Positions 34,857 through 40,981 are shown, counted from the stretch's first letter. The stretch: DNA of 64,000 bases from Streptomyces hawaiiensis (GCF_004803895.1 NZ_CP021978.1:2728001-2792000); one strand, 5' to 3'. Made by a program: numbers and translations. The notes: generated from the letters alone by a model not told the origin.

Positions 34857-35306
34857 ATGGCCTCCACCACGCCGACGCCCCCAGTCATGACCAATCGCCC
34901 CGATCCGCTGACCGTCGAGGTCGTCGAGCTGATCGGCGAGGTCGTGGCGCGGTTCCACGAGGACTACGAGTCGGCGGCGGCGGAGCACACCCTGACCGGC
35001 GCCCAGGCGCGGCTGCTCAGCCTGCTGTGTCTCGAACCGCTGCCGATGCGGAGGCTGGCCCGGCAGCTGAAGTGCGAGCCGTCCAACGTGACGGGGATCG
35101 TGGACCGGCTCGAGGCGCGGGGGCTGGTCGAACGGCAGCCGGATCCCACCGACCGACGGGTGAAGGTGGCGGCGGCGACCGCGGAGGGGCGGCGGGTGGC
35201 CCGGAGCCTGCGGGAGTCGCTGCGGTTCGCCCGGGAGCCCCTGGCCGGGCTCTCCGAGGGGGAGCGCGTGGCGTTGCGGGACACGCTGCGGCGGATGCTG
35301 GGCTGA
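34857..35306 (+). CDS. MarR-family regulator
   Basis: The 149-residue protein has the MarR winged helix (MRRLARQLKCEPSNVTGIVDRLEARGLVERQPDPTDRR split over residues 63-101) including the Asp-Arg wing tip. It lacks an N-terminal redox cysteine, which argues against an OhrR role despite ohr nearby. It is divergent from an alkenal reductase and presumably represses that gene and itself through the two inverted repeats in the 102-bp gap. Start ATG 34857; no good ribosome binding site, so possibly leaderless. Confidence 0.9.
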   Translation: MASTTPTPPVMTNRPDPLTVEVVELIGEVVARFHEDYESAAAEHTLTGAQARLLSLLCLEPLPMRRLARQLKCEPSNVTGIVDRLEARGLVERQPDPTDRRVKVAAATAEGRRVARSLRESLRFAREPLAGLSEGERVALRDTLRRMLG

Positions 35307-35323
35307 GGTCCGGCCCTCAGCCG

Positions 35324-37072
35324 TCAGCGGATCTTGTGCCCCAGGACCGCGTGGAGGGCGCTGCGCACGTGCGCGTACCGCCGGGCCGCCTGTTCGGGGT
35401 TCTGCGGCACGTGGCCGATGCCGTCCTCCCTGATGAGGGTCCAGGGGCGGCCCTGGGCCCTCGCGAGCGCGGCGGCGCGCGCCGTGTCCTGCCCGTCGAC
35501 GACCTCGTCCTGGTCTCCGTGGATGAGGAACACCGGCCGGTCCCCCGTGGCCGAGAGCCGGGCGGGGTCGAAGTCGGGATGGGGGTCCGTGGTGTCCGGC
35601 GCAAGGCCGAACCGCTGCTCGAACCAGCTCCGGTAGCGGGCGTCCGCCGCGACCGCCCGGTTCACATGACGACGCAGGTCGACGAGGGGGGCGCACGCGA
35701 CGGCACCGGCCAGTCGCCCGTCGAGGACGCAGCCGAGCAGCGCGAGGGCCCCGCCGAAGCTGCCGCCGAGCAGCGCGATGTCCCCGGGGCCGAGTCCGCG
35801 CGCCCGCGCTTCGGCGACGCAGGCGTCCAGGTCACCGCGGAAGGCCGCCCGCCAGTCGCTCCAGGGCCGTCGCCGGTGCTGTGATCCGTAGCCGACCGAT
35901 CCCGCGTAGTTGAGGCCGACGACCAGGATCCCGGCGTCCAGCAGTTCCCGGTACAGGCCGTCCCAGCGCAGCTCGTCGCGCTCGATGGACTCCGGGCCGC
36001 CGTGCAGGGACACGACCATGGCGACGGGGTCGCGCGCGGGGGCGTAGACCAGGGCGGGCGCGGGGCCCAGCCGGTGGTGCCGGCGTGTCGCCCCGCCCGC
36101 GTGGGCGGGGATCCGCCCGGGGCTGGAGGCGACGGCCCCTCCGGGGGTGATCCAGTGCCAGGAGGAGCCCGTGAGGGTGCTCAGGGCGTACACGCCGATC
36201 CCGGTGCGGTTCGCCACACGGATGCGCAGGCGTCCGGCTCCGGGGAGGTGCGGGGCGATCGGCCGGGCGCTGCCGTCGGCGGGGTCGACGAGGTCGAGGC
36301 GGTCGGTGGCTTCCTCGGTGCGGACGGCGAGCAGGCCGCCGGTGCCGTCGCGCAGGAAACGGGCGTCGTCCGTCCAGCCGCGGGAGGGCAGCGGGGTCAG
36401 GGATCCGTCCCCGAGGTCCCACAGGCTGAGCGTGGGCTCGGTGCCGGTGTCCGTGCGGTCCGCCAGGACCGCGCCCGTACCGCCCTCGCCGTCGAGCCAG
36501 CGGCCGACGACCGATGCCGCGACCCGGCCGGACGACGGGGCGCACAGGCGCAGGAGCGGGGGCCAGGGGCCCCGGTCCTGCGCCAGCACGGCGACGTCAA
36601 GCTCCGCGTTCCAGTGGACCGGTTCGCCGGGAGGCGCGTCCAGGAACCGGTGGGCGCGCACGCGACCGGACGGCGCGACGTCGAGGAACCGGCGGTTGCC
36701 GGCGTCGTCCTCCACGGTGAGGACGAGCGTGTCACAGGCCGTCTCCAGCACGTCGAGGAGCGTCCATGCCCCGGCCGCGGCGGCCGGGAGATCAGCCCGG
36801 CGGTGCGTCTCCTTGCCGTCCAGCGTCGTCTCGGTGACGGTGAGCCGGCCGTCGTCCCGCACGGACAACCGGGCCAGCGCCTGCCGGGCCCCCAGGAAGA
36901 GGACCGCGTCGGCGTCGAGGTCCGGACGGCACAGGACGCGGTGCCCGCCCCGGCGGTCCGTCTCGATGACGTCGAGCCGTCCGTCCGGGCCGACGGAGCC
37001 GAGCACGGGGCCGTCGTGCCAGGCGAAGAGGTGCCGGTCCCGCTCGGTGAAGAGGTCCTCAGCCAGGGACAT
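35324..37072 (-). CDS. S9-family prolyl-oligopeptidase-like peptidase
   Basis: The 582-residue protein combines an N-terminal beta-propeller (about 20-320) with a C-terminal alpha/beta hydrolase. Triad: Ser438 (GGSFGG), Asp522 (HGDQDEVVD) and His554 (DGIGHVP); oxyanion motif LHGGPES at 356-362. No signal peptide. It is the last gene of a minus-strand cassette (peptide, TPR protein, MFS exporter, peptidase) and overlaps the MFS gene by 14 bp. Such enzymes cut short peptides, often after Pro or another defined residue, so the 22-residue product of the first gene, with prolines at 8 and 10, is a candidate substrate (inference). Confidence 0.88.
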   Translation of the reverse strand: MSLAEDLFTERDRHLFAWHDGPVLGSVGPDGRLDVIETDRRGGHRVLCRPDLDADAVLFLGARQALARLSVRDDGRLTVTETTLDGKETHRRADLPAAAAGAWTLLDVLETACDTLVLTVEDDAGNRRFLDVAPSGRVRAHRFLDAPPGEPVHWNAELDVAVLAQDRGPWPPLLRLCAPSSGRVAASVVGRWLDGEGGTGAVLADRTDTGTEPTLSLWDLGDGSLTPLPSRGWTDDARFLRDGTGGLLAVRTEEATDRLDLVDPADGSARPIAPHLPGAGRLRIRVANRTGIGVYALSTLTGSSWHWITPGGAVASSPGRIPAHAGGATRRHHRLGPAPALVYAPARDPVAMVVSLHGGPESIERDELRWDGLYRELLDAGILVVGLNYAGSVGYGSQHRRRPWSDWRAAFRGDLDACVAEARARGLGPGDIALLGGSFGGALALLGCVLDGRLAGAVACAPLVDLRRHVNRAVAADARYRSWFEQRFGLAPDTTDPHPDFDPARLSATGDRPVFLIHGDQDEVVDGQDTARAAALARAQGRPWTLIREDGIGHVPQNPEQAARRYAHVRSALHAVLGHKIR

Positions 37073-38318
37073 GCGCGGGCTCCTTGCCGGTTTCGCTCGT
37101 GCGGGCGCCCAGACGTCCGTAGAACATCGGCACGAGGACGGCGTTGGCGGCGGTCAGCGCCGTGGCGACCAGGACCGTGCGGTCGCTTCCCAGCGCCTGG
37201 TAGAGCCAGCCGCCGACCGCGCCGCCGAGTGCGTCGCCGGCCAGGAACGCGCTCTGGACCAGGCCGAAGAACGCTCCCGCCACCGCACCGGGGAAGGCGC
37301 TCAGCTGGAGCAGTTCCTGGGACACGGTCGCCCCCAGCAGGAAGACGCCGCGCAGGACGAGGACCACGGCGGCGGTCCACGGATTCACGGCGAGCGCCAG
37401 CACGAGCGTGGCCACGGCACACGCGGATTCCGAGAGCAGGAAGACGCGCAGCGGCGGCCGCCGGCGCAGCACCGGCCCGGCCAGCGCCGCGGCGGTCAGC
37501 CTGCTCAGGCCCGCCGCGGCCAGGACGACACCGACGAGTTCGAGCGGTACACCCCGCTCCTTGAGCAGCAGGGGCAGATAGGGCGTGAGAAGGCTGACGT
37601 AGAAGCCCATCAGCAGCCCGGTTCCCACGACCCCGCACGCCAGCGCCCGGTTCCCGCGCAGGGTCTGGAGCAGGCCGGGTCCGGCCTTGTCGCCGGGGGC
37701 GGTTCCGGAACCCGGGCGGGCTGCCGTGCGGTCCGGGGGGACGGCCAGGGCCGCGGCCAGCACACAGCCCGCCGCCAGCAGCAGGACGAAGACGTATCCC
37801 CGGTCGTCGCCCCCGGCCAGCGCGACCAGAGCGCCCGCCGCGCCGGTGCCCAGGGCCATCCCGGCGTGGTTCATGAACTCCCGGCGGGCGACGACCCCGG
37901 CCCGCTGCTCCTCCGCCACGTGGTGCACGATCCAGGTACGGATCGCGATGAAGATCCCGGAGGCGCCGAGGCCGGCCACGAACCCGGACACCACGGCGAC
38001 GACGGGCAGCGCGTGCACCACCCGCAGCGCCATGCCCGCCGCATACAGCAGCGTGCCCGCCAGGAAGACGGGCCGGCTGCCCCAGCGGTCCGCCAGCCGC
38101 CCAGTGAAGACGGAGGCCGTGCCGGCGACGGCCATCGCGGTGTACGACAGGCCGAAGGCCACCAGATGTCCGTGGCGCTCGAAGTACAGGGGCTGCACGG
38201 TCTTGGACAGCCACATGCCCGTGAAGAACAGGAAGGTGAAGGCGGCGAGCCGGCGGCTGCCGGTCGCCCGCCGCCCGGGGTCGACTGCCTTGTGCGGAAG
38301 GCCTCTTGTCACGTTCAT
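37059..38318 (-). CDS. MFS exporter of the peptide cassette
   Basis: The 419-residue major facilitator has about 12 transmembrane segments and motif A GRLADRWGSRPVFLAG in the loop between helices 2 and 3. It resembles drug:H+ antiporters of the DHA1 type. Its start overlaps the TPR gene by 4 bp and its end overlaps the peptidase gene by 14 bp, so all three are translated from one mRNA. In this context it may export the small peptide or its processed form; sequence alone does not show the substrate. Confidence 0.85.
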   Translation of the reverse strand: MNVTRGLPHKAVDPGRRATGSRRLAAFTFLFFTGMWLSKTVQPLYFERHGHLVAFGLSYTAMAVAGTASVFTGRLADRWGSRPVFLAGTLLYAAGMALRVVHALPVVAVVSGFVAGLGASGIFIAIRTWIVHHVAEEQRAGVVARREFMNHAGMALGTGAAGALVALAGGDDRGYVFVLLLAAGCVLAAALAVPPDRTAARPGSGTAPGDKAGPGLLQTLRGNRALACGVVGTGLLMGFYVSLLTPYLPLLLKERGVPLELVGVVLAAAGLSRLTAAALAGPVLRRRPPLRVFLLSESACAVATLVLALAVNPWTAAVVLVLRGVFLLGATVSQELLQLSAFPGAVAGAFFGLVQSAFLAGDALGGAVGGWLYQALGSDRTVLVATALTAANAVLVPMFYGRLGARTSETGKEPAHVPG

Positions 38319-39853
38319 CCCGTCATCGCGGCGACCACCTGGTCCAGGTTGGCACGCGCGTCGCGGTCGTCGGGAGCGAGCACGACCACCTCTTGAAGCG
38401 CCTGCCGGGCGGCGGGCAGGTCTCCGGCGGCCGCGTGCTGCTCGGCGGTCAGCGTCAGGAACTTGACCGCGCTGTCCGGCGGCAGGCCGGTGAGGTCGGC
38501 GCAGAGCAGCAGTTTCAGCGCGGACTCGTAATCCTCGCTCTCCCCCAGGGCGTACGCCAGATCGTAGAGGGCGTCGTTGTCTCCCGGGACGAACGCGTGG
38601 GCGGCGCGGTACGCGCTCACGGCGTCGTCGGGGCGGCCCAGCTGGAGGTAGGTGAACCCCAGCAGCGAGTGGACTTCCTGGATGGACGGGCCGAGGTCGC
38701 GCGCGGTCAGCAGACAGGCGAGGGCCTCGGTGAAATCACCGAGGTCCAGGTGACAGTGCGCCAGTTCCATGTGATATTCCGGCATCTTGCCGTCGAGTTC
38801 GAGCAGTTGCCGATAGGCCCTGATCGCCTCGGCGTGATGGCCCGACCGGCGGTAACACTGCGCGAGGTTGTACACGAGCACGGTCTGGTGCATGCGATTC
38901 TTCGCGGAGCCGGAGCGCAGCCGTGCGATTCCGTCGGTGAGGAGCGCGATCGCCTCGTCGACCCTCCCACGCCGGAATTCGACCAGCGCGTATCCGTTCC
39001 GGTTGAAGACCTTGTGGAAGTCCAGGTCCTCGACGTCTGCCTGCCGCGATCGTTGGAGCAGCGCATAACCGTGTTCCAGGAACTCGGCGGCCTTGTCCAG
39101 GGACCGGAGAAAGGGTGGATGGTGTCGCGCGTACAGCATGGACAGGGCGTAATCCGCACCCGTCGCCGCGACCGCCGAGGTGCTTTCCCGCCAGCGCAGG
39201 TAGCAGAACTCGGCCTCCATCGTCCGGCCCTGCATGGCGTAGGAGAGGCCGAGTTTTCCCCAGACGGCGGGCTCGGCGCGGTGGTTGAGCACTACGGACA
39301 GGATCCGTTCGGCCGACCAGCTGTCGCCGAGGCTCAGATACCGGTCTGCCTCTTCCATGAGGAAGTCGAGATCGCCCTCCCCCGGGCTCCCGGCGGTCGA
39401 GCAGAGGTGTTCGACGCGCCGCTCCCGGGCGTTCTCCTCGTACGCCGGTGCGACGTCCGTGCCGGGAGCGCCGGGGAACAGCCGTACGGTGACGTCTGTT
39501 CCGAGCGTGGCCAGCGTCTCGAAGAAGAGCCGGCTGCCGTCGTCCAGGTGCTCGCACCCGGCCACCTCGACCGAGACCGAGCCGGCGTCCCGCGCCCATG
39601 CCCGGCCGACGTCCCGGAAGTTGCGGACGAGACGGTCCTTGAGGAAGAAGCGGATGCGGTCGTGCGCCTGCGCCGCATCGGTCAGGCTCTCCGTCTCCTC
39701 GACCGCGGCGCAGGCCGGGTCGTCGGGAGACAGGAGCTTCAGCCCGATCAGGGCCTGCCGCGGCCAGCTGTCGGTCCGCGCCCCGTGCAGCAGCTCCTTG
39801 ACCGGTAGGAATCCCACTGTTTTCCTGCGCGCCTCAACTGTGACACGACGCAA
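38315..39853 (-). CDS. TPR-repeat protein of the peptide cassette
   Basis: The 512-residue cytosolic protein has an N-terminal region of about 170 residues with no domain I recognise (containing CEHLDDGSRLFFETLATLGT), then at least six tetratricopeptide-like helical pairs: about 183-230, 283-313, 325-357, 359-390, 393-424 and 427-460 (for example YNLAQCYRRSGHHAEAIRAY). TPR superhelices bind peptides, so it may hold or sense the small peptide encoded just upstream. TTG 39853 follows GGGGGA closely; GTG 39817, behind AGGA, is a credible alternative start. No helix-turn-helix is present, unlike Rgg/PlcR receptors. Confidence 0.8.
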   Translation of the reverse strand: MRRVTVEARRKTVGFLPVKELLHGARTDSWPRQALIGLKLLSPDDPACAAVEETESLTDAAQAHDRIRFFLKDRLVRNFRDVGRAWARDAGSVSVEVAGCEHLDDGSRLFFETLATLGTDVTVRLFPGAPGTDVAPAYEENARERRVEHLCSTAGSPGEGDLDFLMEEADRYLSLGDSWSAERILSVVLNHRAEPAVWGKLGLSYAMQGRTMEAEFCYLRWRESTSAVAATGADYALSMLYARHHPPFLRSLDKAAEFLEHGYALLQRSRQADVEDLDFHKVFNRNGYALVEFRRGRVDEAIALLTDGIARLRSGSAKNRMHQTVLVYNLAQCYRRSGHHAEAIRAYRQLLELDGKMPEYHMELAHCHLDLGDFTEALACLLTARDLGPSIQEVHSLLGFTYLQLGRPDDAVSAYRAAHAFVPGDNDALYDLAYALGESEDYESALKLLLCADLTGLPPDSAVKFLTLTAEQHAAAGDLPAARQALQEVVVLAPDDRDARANLDQVVAAMTG

Positions 39854-39880
39854 AAGTCCCCCTGGTGGTGCCGAGTTGAA

Positions 39881-39910
39881 ACGCCCGGGACGGTTCTCCG
39901 CCCCGGGCGT
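39881..39910 (-). terminator. Hairpin between peptide gene and TPR gene
   Basis: ACGCCCGGG and its complement (39881-39889 and 39902-39910) form a 9-bp stem with further GG/CC pairing in the loop; on the minus strand it is followed by TTTCAA. It lies 23 bp past the stop of the 22-codon gene. Partial termination here would give more peptide than downstream protein, a common design for precursor genes. Confidence 0.65.
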
Positions 39911-39932
39911 TCAGTGATGTCCGGAGAGCCGC

Positions 39933-40001
39933 TCAGGAAGCGTTGTACATCACGGAGAAGACAACCTTCTTGGGCTTCGGCGCAGCCTTGATGAGCTTCA
40001 T
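39933..40001 (-). CDS. 22-residue peptide, candidate secreted or RiPP-type precursor
   Basis: ATG 40001 to TGA 39933 encodes 22 residues. A strong Shine-Dalgarno stretch, GGGGGAAAGAA, precedes the ATG directly. The first half is basic and Pro-containing (MKLIKAAPKPKK); the second half, from residue 13, is hydrophobic and ends VVFSVMYNAS. GC content is about 52%, far below the surroundings. The gene is followed by a hairpin and then by overlapping TPR, MFS and S9-peptidase genes on the same strand. No cysteine is present, so lanthionine chemistry is excluded; no radical SAM, P450 or cyclodehydratase gene is in the window. A leader-peptide/attenuator role is the main alternative. Confidence 0.7.
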   Translation of the reverse strand: MKLIKAAPKPKKVVFSVMYNAS

Positions 40002-40204
40002 TTCTTTCCCCCTTCTGAAAGGTCCGTCCGAGCGAATCCTGCGCGGACGCGGAAAGATGTACACGGCGCTCCGGTCACGGAAAAAGGGCGCTCGGAACCG
40101 GGCACGACCCCGGGTGCCGCGAACTCGACGTTTGCGGCCCGGTATTCAGGGGCAGGAAGGGGCGATTCCGTTCCCCGCGTGCTGCCGAGAATGGCCGACA
40201 GGTC

Positions 40205-40981
40205 TTACGTGCACCACCACAGGAACCGGTTGCACGTCTGGGACGGGGATGGTTCCGGTTCCGGGGTGGTCGGACCCGATGTCGGCGTCGGGGCCGGGGC
40301 CGGCGGGGCGGCCGTGGGAGCGGATGCCGGGCGGCTGGGGGCGCCTCCCGCCGTGGCCGACTCGGGGTCCTTCGCCGGTTCGTCGCCCTTCGGGGACTCC
40401 GACGTCTCGTCCTTCGGGGATCCGGAAGCGGACGGCGTGTCAGATGCCTCCGGTGAGGCGGAGCCTGACGCGTCCGCAGCCCCGGCTCCCTTCCCGCCGG
40501 AAGCGCTGCCCGGCTCCCCCGCCTCCGCCGAGGCGTCCCCGTCCGCCGACTCGCCCCCGGCCGCGGCCGGCTTCGGCGTCGAGCTGGGGGCGTCCATGCC
40601 GAGCTCCGCGAGGCTCAGACCGCCCGCGGCCAGCACGAACCCCGCCGCCACGAACAGGGTCCGGCGCCGGCGCCGGCGGTGTGCGGCGGCCTTGCGGTCC
40701 CGCCGGCTCGACCCGCCCGGGCTGTCGACGGCCGGGCCGTGCCCGCGCCCGCGGCCCCGACGACGCGCGGCGCGTCCCAGGTGCTCAGCGTCGTCATCGT
40801 CATCGCCGTACGCGGCGTCCGACCCTGCCGGCCCCTCCGGCGCGCCACCGGCGCTCTCGGACGCAGTGCCGTCGTAGCCGTACCCCGGCTCACGCCGCCG
40901 CAGCGTTTCGGCCGAGGTGCCGCACCCCGGGCAGGCAAGGGCGCCGTTGAGGTGCCGTCGGCACGGGTCGCAGTAGTCCAT
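40205..40981 (-). CDS. Zinc-ribbon membrane protein with Ser/Pro-rich exterior and CxxxxWWC tail
   Basis: The 258-residue protein begins with a four-cysteine zinc ribbon (YCDPCRRH and LACPGCGT, residues 4-22), has an Arg-rich stretch before a single transmembrane helix (TLFVAAGFVLAAGGLSLAEL, about 108-127), and a low-complexity Ala/Ser/Pro/Thr region to the end. The last residues, TCNRFLWWCT, form a conserved-looking Cys-aromatic motif that could be disulfide-bonded outside the cell. The domain order suggests a cytosolic zinc sensor linked to an extracellular tip. The function is unknown. It lies upstream of the peptide gene on the same strand with a 203-bp gap. Confidence 0.75.
   Translation of the reverse strand: MDYCDPCRRHLNGALACPGCGTSAETLRRREPGYGYDGTASESAGGAPEGPAGSDAAYGDDDDDAEHLGRAARRRGRGRGHGPAVDSPGGSSRRDRKAAAHRRRRRRTLFVAAGFVLAAGGLSLAELGMDAPSSTPKPAAAGGESADGDASAEAGEPGSASGGKGAGAADASGSASPEASDTPSASGSPKDETSESPKGDEPAKDPESATAGGAPSRPASAPTAAPPAPAPTPTSGPTTPEPEPSPSQTCNRFLWWCT

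Follow-up and report, generated by a model that had tools for sequence, protein, structure and literature searches.

Within a 64,000-nucleotide stretch of the Streptomyces hawaiiensis chromosome (NZ_CP021978.1:2728001-2792000; hereafter the window), an unannotated gene encodes a 22-residue precursor peptide, MKLIKAAPKPKKVVFSVMYNAS, and heads a cassette for a tetratricopeptide repeat (TPR) protein, a major facilitator superfamily (MFS) transporter and an S9-family serine hydrolase. The peptide gene is real and under purifying selection, and the cassette is mobile across phyla, being carried by plasmids as well as inserted in a chromosome. These four genes probably make and export a small ribosomal peptide of bacteriocin-like character, in a layout resembling that of microcin C, with the TPR protein standing in for MccB. 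Together with its relatives, the peptide forms an unannotated family of 20-29 residues with an FSVMY core and a dedicated export cassette, found in soil actinomycetes, on enterobacterial plasmids and in a Fusobacterium.

The open reading frame (ORF) runs on the minus strand from an ATG at 40001 to a TGA at 39933 and follows a ribosome-binding site, AGAAGGGGG, at 40016-40008 on the same strand; a purine-rich site also lies 5' of the ORF in related loci. Both the frame and its binding site had been proposed in an initial annotation of this DNA and stand, as does the estimate of about 52% GC for the ORF (52.2%), while the surrounding '70+%' given there was slightly generous near the TPR gene, where the value is 66-68% (66-78% across the cassette in 500-bp bins). 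In each of nine related loci, one small ORF scored 48-93 against the window ORF (BLOSUM62), compared with 23-27 for the best other small ORF of the same locus, and in all nine the scoring ORF sits immediately 5' of the TPR gene. The FSVMY motif occurs once per locus in ten loci, the whole 64-kb window among them, and always within the peptide ORF. Among the six Streptomyces copies, the ratio of non-synonymous to synonymous polymorphism (pN/pS) is 0.21 and third codon positions hold 89 of the 146 pairwise differences. The pN/pS value, the third-position bias and the scores across loci rule out a chance ORF.

The genes that follow are encoded on the same strand: the TPR protein (512 residues, TTG start, 38315..39853; Pfam TPR matches), the MFS transporter, a putative exporter (419 residues, 37059..38318; PF07690, E 7.8e-35), and the S9 hydrolase (582 residues, 35324..37072; PF00326, E 2.3e-14). 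They overlap by 4 bp (TPR/MFS) and 14 bp (MFS/S9), in agreement with the initial annotation. With the TPR protein as query, GTDB genomes yielded four other Streptomyces cassettes, and a search of 393 Streptomyces genomes added a fifth; all five carry a 23-residue version of the peptide in the same place (MKLIKAAPAAKKVTFSVMYNAQL, MKLIKAAPAVKKVTFSVMYNAPV, MKLIKAAPAAKKVTFSVMYNAPV, MKLVKAAPKAKKVVFSVMYNSAT and MKLIKAAPAAKKVTFSVMYNAAT). Identity between the Streptomyces loci is ~58-63% for the TPR protein, ~65-69% for the MFS protein and ~43-49% for the S9 protein. Only the peptide, TPR, MFS and S9 genes are common to these loci, as expected from the earlier claim that no classical tailoring enzyme is present, and the flanks differ between all genomes compared, which rules out a larger gene cluster. 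The peptide is rare: of the 393 Streptomyces genomes sampled, 2 have it, one of them being that of the window. Drawing Streptomyces genomes a second time brought no further cassette, and a class-wide search outside Streptomyces gave weak matches to the N-terminal domain of the TPR protein only.

A tblastn search of plasmids with the TPR protein located the TPR-MFS-S9 order on plasmids of Klebsiella pneumoniae (conjugative), Pantoea soli and P. agglomerans, and a TPR-S9 arrangement with ABC transporter genes replacing the MFS gene on pSMON01 of Streptobacillus moniliformis. The Klebsiella cassette had no match in E. coli complete genomes. Small ORFs with FSVMY intact (MKMIKRKPAAKRVDFSVMYNR, MKMIKRAPKAKRVDFSVMYAGK, MKMIKRKPSAKRVDFSVMYGGTN and MKKLIKKKIELKKVNFSVMYCYKDGCLAF) lie 47-76 nt before the TPR gene on the Klebsiella, Pantoea and Streptobacillus plasmids, each with a good ribosome-binding site, and none of them is listed in the (incomplete) PLSDB gene tables. 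The initial annotation had assigned the peptide gene to the cassette and had named homologous cassettes lacking a small ORF as counter-evidence; the same order recurs in relatives, and all nine complete TPR-MFS-S9 cassettes compared (six from Streptomyces, one from Klebsiella and two from Pantoea) carry the ORF, as does the TPR-S9-ABC cassette of Streptobacillus. Production and export of a peptide by the cassette is supported by this order being kept in six Streptomyces with unrelated flanks as well as on plasmids, and by the exchange of the exporter for ABC genes in Streptobacillus while the peptide, TPR and S9 genes stay. The MFS gene occupies the same position in the Streptomyces, Klebsiella, Pantoea, Listeria and Acinetobacter cassettes.

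Conservation along the peptide is uneven. Across nine sequences, residues 1-19 average 80% identity and FSVMY is 100% identical, invariant from Actinomycetota to Fusobacteriota, whereas the residues after Tyr-19 average 25% and differ in number. The precursor therefore shows the general signature of a ribosomally synthesised and post-translationally modified peptide (RiPP), namely a conserved leader and a variable core in a ribosomal precursor (80% versus 25%). Such a pattern fits a leader that ends near Tyr-19 and precedes a short C-terminal core, or else a peptide that is used in its entirety. A boundary at Tyr-19 is more likely than one in mid-peptide because residues 1-19 are conserved and the tail is variable. 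The division first suggested, which set VVFSVMYNAS apart as the product and the basic half as its leader, is thus not retained, as FSVMY is the most conserved part and strong variation occurs only after Tyr-19. Alternatively, the whole peptide may be exported, as in microcin C.

More distant plasmid cassettes with TPR and exporter genes likewise open with a short peptide, namely MEKIMKPVPTRKTKSIGYNG in Listeria, MKKVKVKATPVKAANAVVYSGN in Bacillus badius, MKTVKITKKVVKASNAVMYSGN in Priestia, MKTVVIKKNSVRAKVVLGYN in Exiguobacterium and MKKSMLKKLPKLNKKVRTTTPYQAA in Vibrio. FSVMY is missing from all five, which are placed together on account of their location, their length and a Tyr close to the end; they are likely, though not proven, to be homologous to the window peptide. 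An O-methyltransferase is additionally encoded in the Bacillus and Priestia cassettes, accompanied in Bacillus by a GNAT protein. On the Exiguobacterium plasmid pE73 (L077:7468-7763), three tandem genes encode the identical peptide with synonymous differences only, as expected for the precursor of a product; each copy has its own ribosome-binding site, a hairpin follows the last copy only, and the genes adjoin those for a ThiF adenylyltransferase and an O-methyltransferase. This locus, TPR protein included, is likely a cluster of the microcin C kind.

Loci L051-L064, from a neighbouring actinobacterial family of the same order, carry a second family of TPR proteins with short peptides of its own (MKTIVVRKAGAVRLTSAAASCYCPS and others), of the form MK...R(K/R)xGx(V/I)RLTS...Y. 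The TPR protein encoded there is large and in most loci accompanied by a membrane protein of ~400 aa; L082 shows membrane protein and TPR genes only, and two loci, L055 and L056, contain a RiPP radical SAM C-methyltransferase (TIGR03975, E 1e-181). To our knowledge, this second RiPP-like TPR family (L051-L064 and L082) has not been described. Like the window cassette, the TIGR03975-linked loci combine a short MK-rich precursor, a Tyr and a variable tail with a TPR protein, which is 26-35% identical over the TPR half. In contrast, their TPR proteins are mostly ~700 aa long, they possess the additional membrane protein and, in the two loci, the radical SAM enzyme, and no relative of the window S9 or MFS protein was found beside them. 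A PqqD-like start in the membrane proteins of distant loci was considered and rejected, having no Pfam support. The ThiF, O-methyltransferase, GNAT and radical SAM neighbours place TPR relatives in biosynthetic settings and therefore favour a product over a regulatory leader as the function of the short peptides.

Directly 3' of the peptide gene in the window lies a terminator- or stabiliser-like hairpin (minus strand, 39879..39912) with a 15-bp stem and a 4-nt loop, in keeping with the initial annotation. With its flanks it folds at a free energy of -34 kcal/mol (z = -4.2), and one of 200 shuffles was equally good; hairpins at the equivalent place in other cassettes folded with z scores of -3.5 to -6.1. 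Stem sequences are unrelated between distant loci, while the position between the peptide stop codon and the TPR gene is kept, such that the cassettes folded have a single hairpin in common by location, though not by sequence. The same elements would suit a regulatory leader peptide whose translation, perhaps stalling at FSVMY, controls the hairpin and thereby a TPR-MFS-hydrolase operon for drug or peptide resistance. A conserved peptide, an intergenic hairpin, downstream efflux and hydrolase genes and the resemblance of the S9 enzyme to puromycin hydrolases all fit such an arrangement, and arrest peptides may be conserved across phyla. However, the Exiguobacterium peptide is encoded by three synonymous copies with a hairpin after the last alone, TPR relatives are linked to ThiF, O-methyltransferase and radical SAM enzymes, and the strongly variable residues all follow Tyr-19. 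Furthermore, no second, competing stem stood out when the gaps were folded, alternative pairings not having been searched systematically. We consider a regulatory leader unlikely.

The operon layout finds its closest parallel in microcin C, in which mccA is followed by a terminator, mccB and, downstream, the MccC exporter and immunity enzymes, and termination induced by the ribosome gives rise to an mccA mRNA that is short and abundant (PMC6495379). The likeness extends to the very short precursor gene, the terminator-like hairpin, the ensuing operon with exporter and hydrolase, and carriage on plasmids, and in Exiguobacterium a TPR-MFS relative neighbours a gene for a ThiF adenylyltransferase and peptides with a C-terminal Asn. 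The Streptomyces, Klebsiella and Pantoea cassettes differ in lacking MccB, the TPR protein being encoded in that place, and in their longer peptides (20-29 residues versus 7) and the family of the hydrolase (S9 versus S66). In addition, the microcin C precursor ends in Asn bearing a nucleotide, whereas the window peptide ends in NAS and other tails vary. By analogy, the putative MFS exporter and the S9 enzyme are candidates for the counterparts of the microcin C exporter and self-immunity hydrolase, with both orthology to MccC and an immunity role standing as candidate assignments.

For a peptide made and exported in this microcin C-like manner, the layout suggests that transcription of the peptide gene would give a short, abundant message ending at the hairpin, with read-through supplying a smaller amount of TPR-MFS-S9 message. 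The TPR protein would bind the 22-residue precursor through its conserved part, ending at Tyr-19, and modification would probably take place in the short variable tail beyond, unless that tail is itself the product. The MFS protein, judging by its family and by the presence of an exporter in each cassette, would then export the peptide, while the S9 hydrolase could trim it or destroy product retained inside the cell, the part played by MccF in the case of microcin C.

The AlphaFold model of the TPR protein (predicted local distance difference test score, pLDDT, 85.7) comprises an N-terminal alpha/beta part of ~130 residues and a C-terminal TPR superhelix, which resembles those of OGT and LGN in Foldseek comparisons. 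The OGT and LGN superhelices bind peptides. Homologues on the Klebsiella and Pantoea plasmids span 84-92% of its length. The N-terminal domain had no Pfam match, and the Foldseek matches listed were all TPR proteins. It is clearly homologous to the N-domains of the Klebsiella/Pantoea and Streptobacillus proteins (hhalign, 97%) and is moderately related to that of Acinetobacter (68%), while values for the Listeria, Bacillus/Exiguobacterium and Catenulispora-like proteins are not significant (1-22%); the TPR halves of the latter are homologous despite the difference in N-domain.

A short peptide gene adjoining a TPR protein with a modelled superhelix also recalls the RRNPP systems of Firmicutes (for example Rap-Phr and PlcR-PapR), and the peptide could accordingly be a cell-cell signal that is exported by the MFS protein, trimmed by the S9 enzyme and sensed by the TPR protein. 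Against this, Pfam and NCBIfam searches of the TPR protein found no helix-turn-helix, Rap-type output or other regulator domain, its N-terminal domain is of another kind, and the operon includes an exporter and a hydrolase. Most RRNPP peptides carry a Sec signal, whereas the window peptide has none. The tailoring enzymes of related loci and the wide spread on plasmids, with no regulated target inside the cassette, likewise make a signalling role quite improbable.

The S9 protein combines a beta-propeller with an alpha/beta hydrolase domain (model of moderate quality, pLDDT 69.5), and its putative catalytic triad, Ser438-Asp522-His554, is kept in all nine other intact homologues aligned, from Streptomyces, Klebsiella, Pantoea and Streptobacillus. 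Among solved structures, the nearest folds are those of puromycin hydrolases, followed by prolyl endopeptidases and acylaminoacyl peptidases. It shares the propeller, hydrolase domain and Ser-Asp-His triad with puromycin hydrolases (3azo, 7c72), acylaminoacyl peptidases and the macrocyclases PCY1 and OphP, but at about 20% identity or less, and substrate and reaction (hydrolysis or cyclisation) are therefore not assignable. The modelled likeness to puromycin hydrolases, taken with the conserved Tyr, invites the idea of self-immunity through cleavage of an aminoacyl or peptidyl conjugate, which we regard as a lead. Proline-specific processing, put forward in the initial annotation on the model of cyanobactin and amatoxin pathways, was discarded, as Pro-10 is not conserved and the fold lies nearest to puromycin hydrolases; the PatA/PatG subtilisin of cyanobactin pathways is also absent from the cassette.

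The conserved Tyr raises a further alternative, in which the peptide serves not as an antibiotic but as the scaffold on which a small molecule or cofactor is built. PQQ and mycofactocin are built from Tyr in their precursors, a Tyr near the C-terminus is above all what the window peptide has in common with its distant counterparts from Bacillus, Listeria, Exiguobacterium and Vibrio, and the cassette encodes a peptidase-family enzyme. However, it encodes no radical SAM or redox enzyme, and both its plasmid location and its patchy presence in Streptomyces are unlike a cofactor pathway, rendering this origin very improbable.

Several observations weigh against production of a microcin C-like peptide, the reading that we favour. 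No product, modification or activity is known for the cassette, which contains no recognised modifying enzyme: MccB is absent, and its TPR, MFS and S9 proteins have no ThiF match in Pfam or NCBIfam. The Acinetobacter cassette gave no peptide candidate 5' of its TPR gene, the Streptomyces hairpin has a short U run in place of a long U tract and was not called by a generic terminator scan, and defensive peptides whose targets change do not usually have a body that is conserved instead of variable. A bolder proposal, to which we give somewhat less than even credence, is that the cassette represents a new RiPP class, carried to at least three phyla by plasmids and chromosomal insertion. Every known RiPP modifying enzyme would here be replaced by the TPR protein with its uncharacterised N-domain, which would itself alter the peptide at or beyond the conserved Tyr or else pass it, nearly unmodified, to the exporter.

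The FSVMY sequences occur in no paper of the open-access library searched, and, judging by title and abstract, none of the papers retrieved describes a TPR-MFS-prolyl oligopeptidase RiPP. If the peptides are antibiotics, a single TPR-led cassette has been traded across phyla and can be mined through a small ORF missed by the gene tables seen. The cassette also hints at what a TPR family that occurs with several kinds of RiPP enzymes may do, and allows the ability of a TPR protein to replace a RiPP modifying enzyme to be tested directly.

In the window, the cassette is bordered on the left by a marR-type gene (plus strand, 34857..35306), which marks the insertion site, and on the right by an SCO2400-family gene (minus strand, 40205..40981; NF049861, E 1.4e-36), which is unlinked to the cassette in other genomes. 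The two genes are direct neighbours in the cassette-free relative L103, and in L102 and L104 other genes, differing from the cassette, lie between them. Because the site is empty in one relative and differently occupied in two, the Streptomyces cassette is read as an insertion at a variable site. The interval between the marR and SCO2400 genes (window positions 35307-40204) is an insertion hotspot. The SCO2400-family protein, encoded directly upstream of the cassette, has a Pro/Ser/Glu-rich tail and ends in CNRFLWWCT.

Two further arrangements were observed among the relatives. The Vibrio coralliilyticus plasmid cassette (L084:8146-9693), consisting of the peptide, a TPR protein in two ORFs, an MFS gene and an S9-like ORF without the catalytic Ser block, seems frame-disrupted. 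In five Streptomyces genomes (L046-L050; for example L047:5450-8595), the TPR N-domain (~44% identity) is fused to DUF6235 and followed by DUF6423, an FAD oxidoreductase and, in L049, DUF6187. In L047 and L050, 22-aa ORFs (MKTAKAPSAIGSAIAVVVRDAI and MKLVKASPVTNGVVLPVTRNVG) lie ~160 nt upstream, and the DUF6235-fusion loci are possibly a related peptide system.

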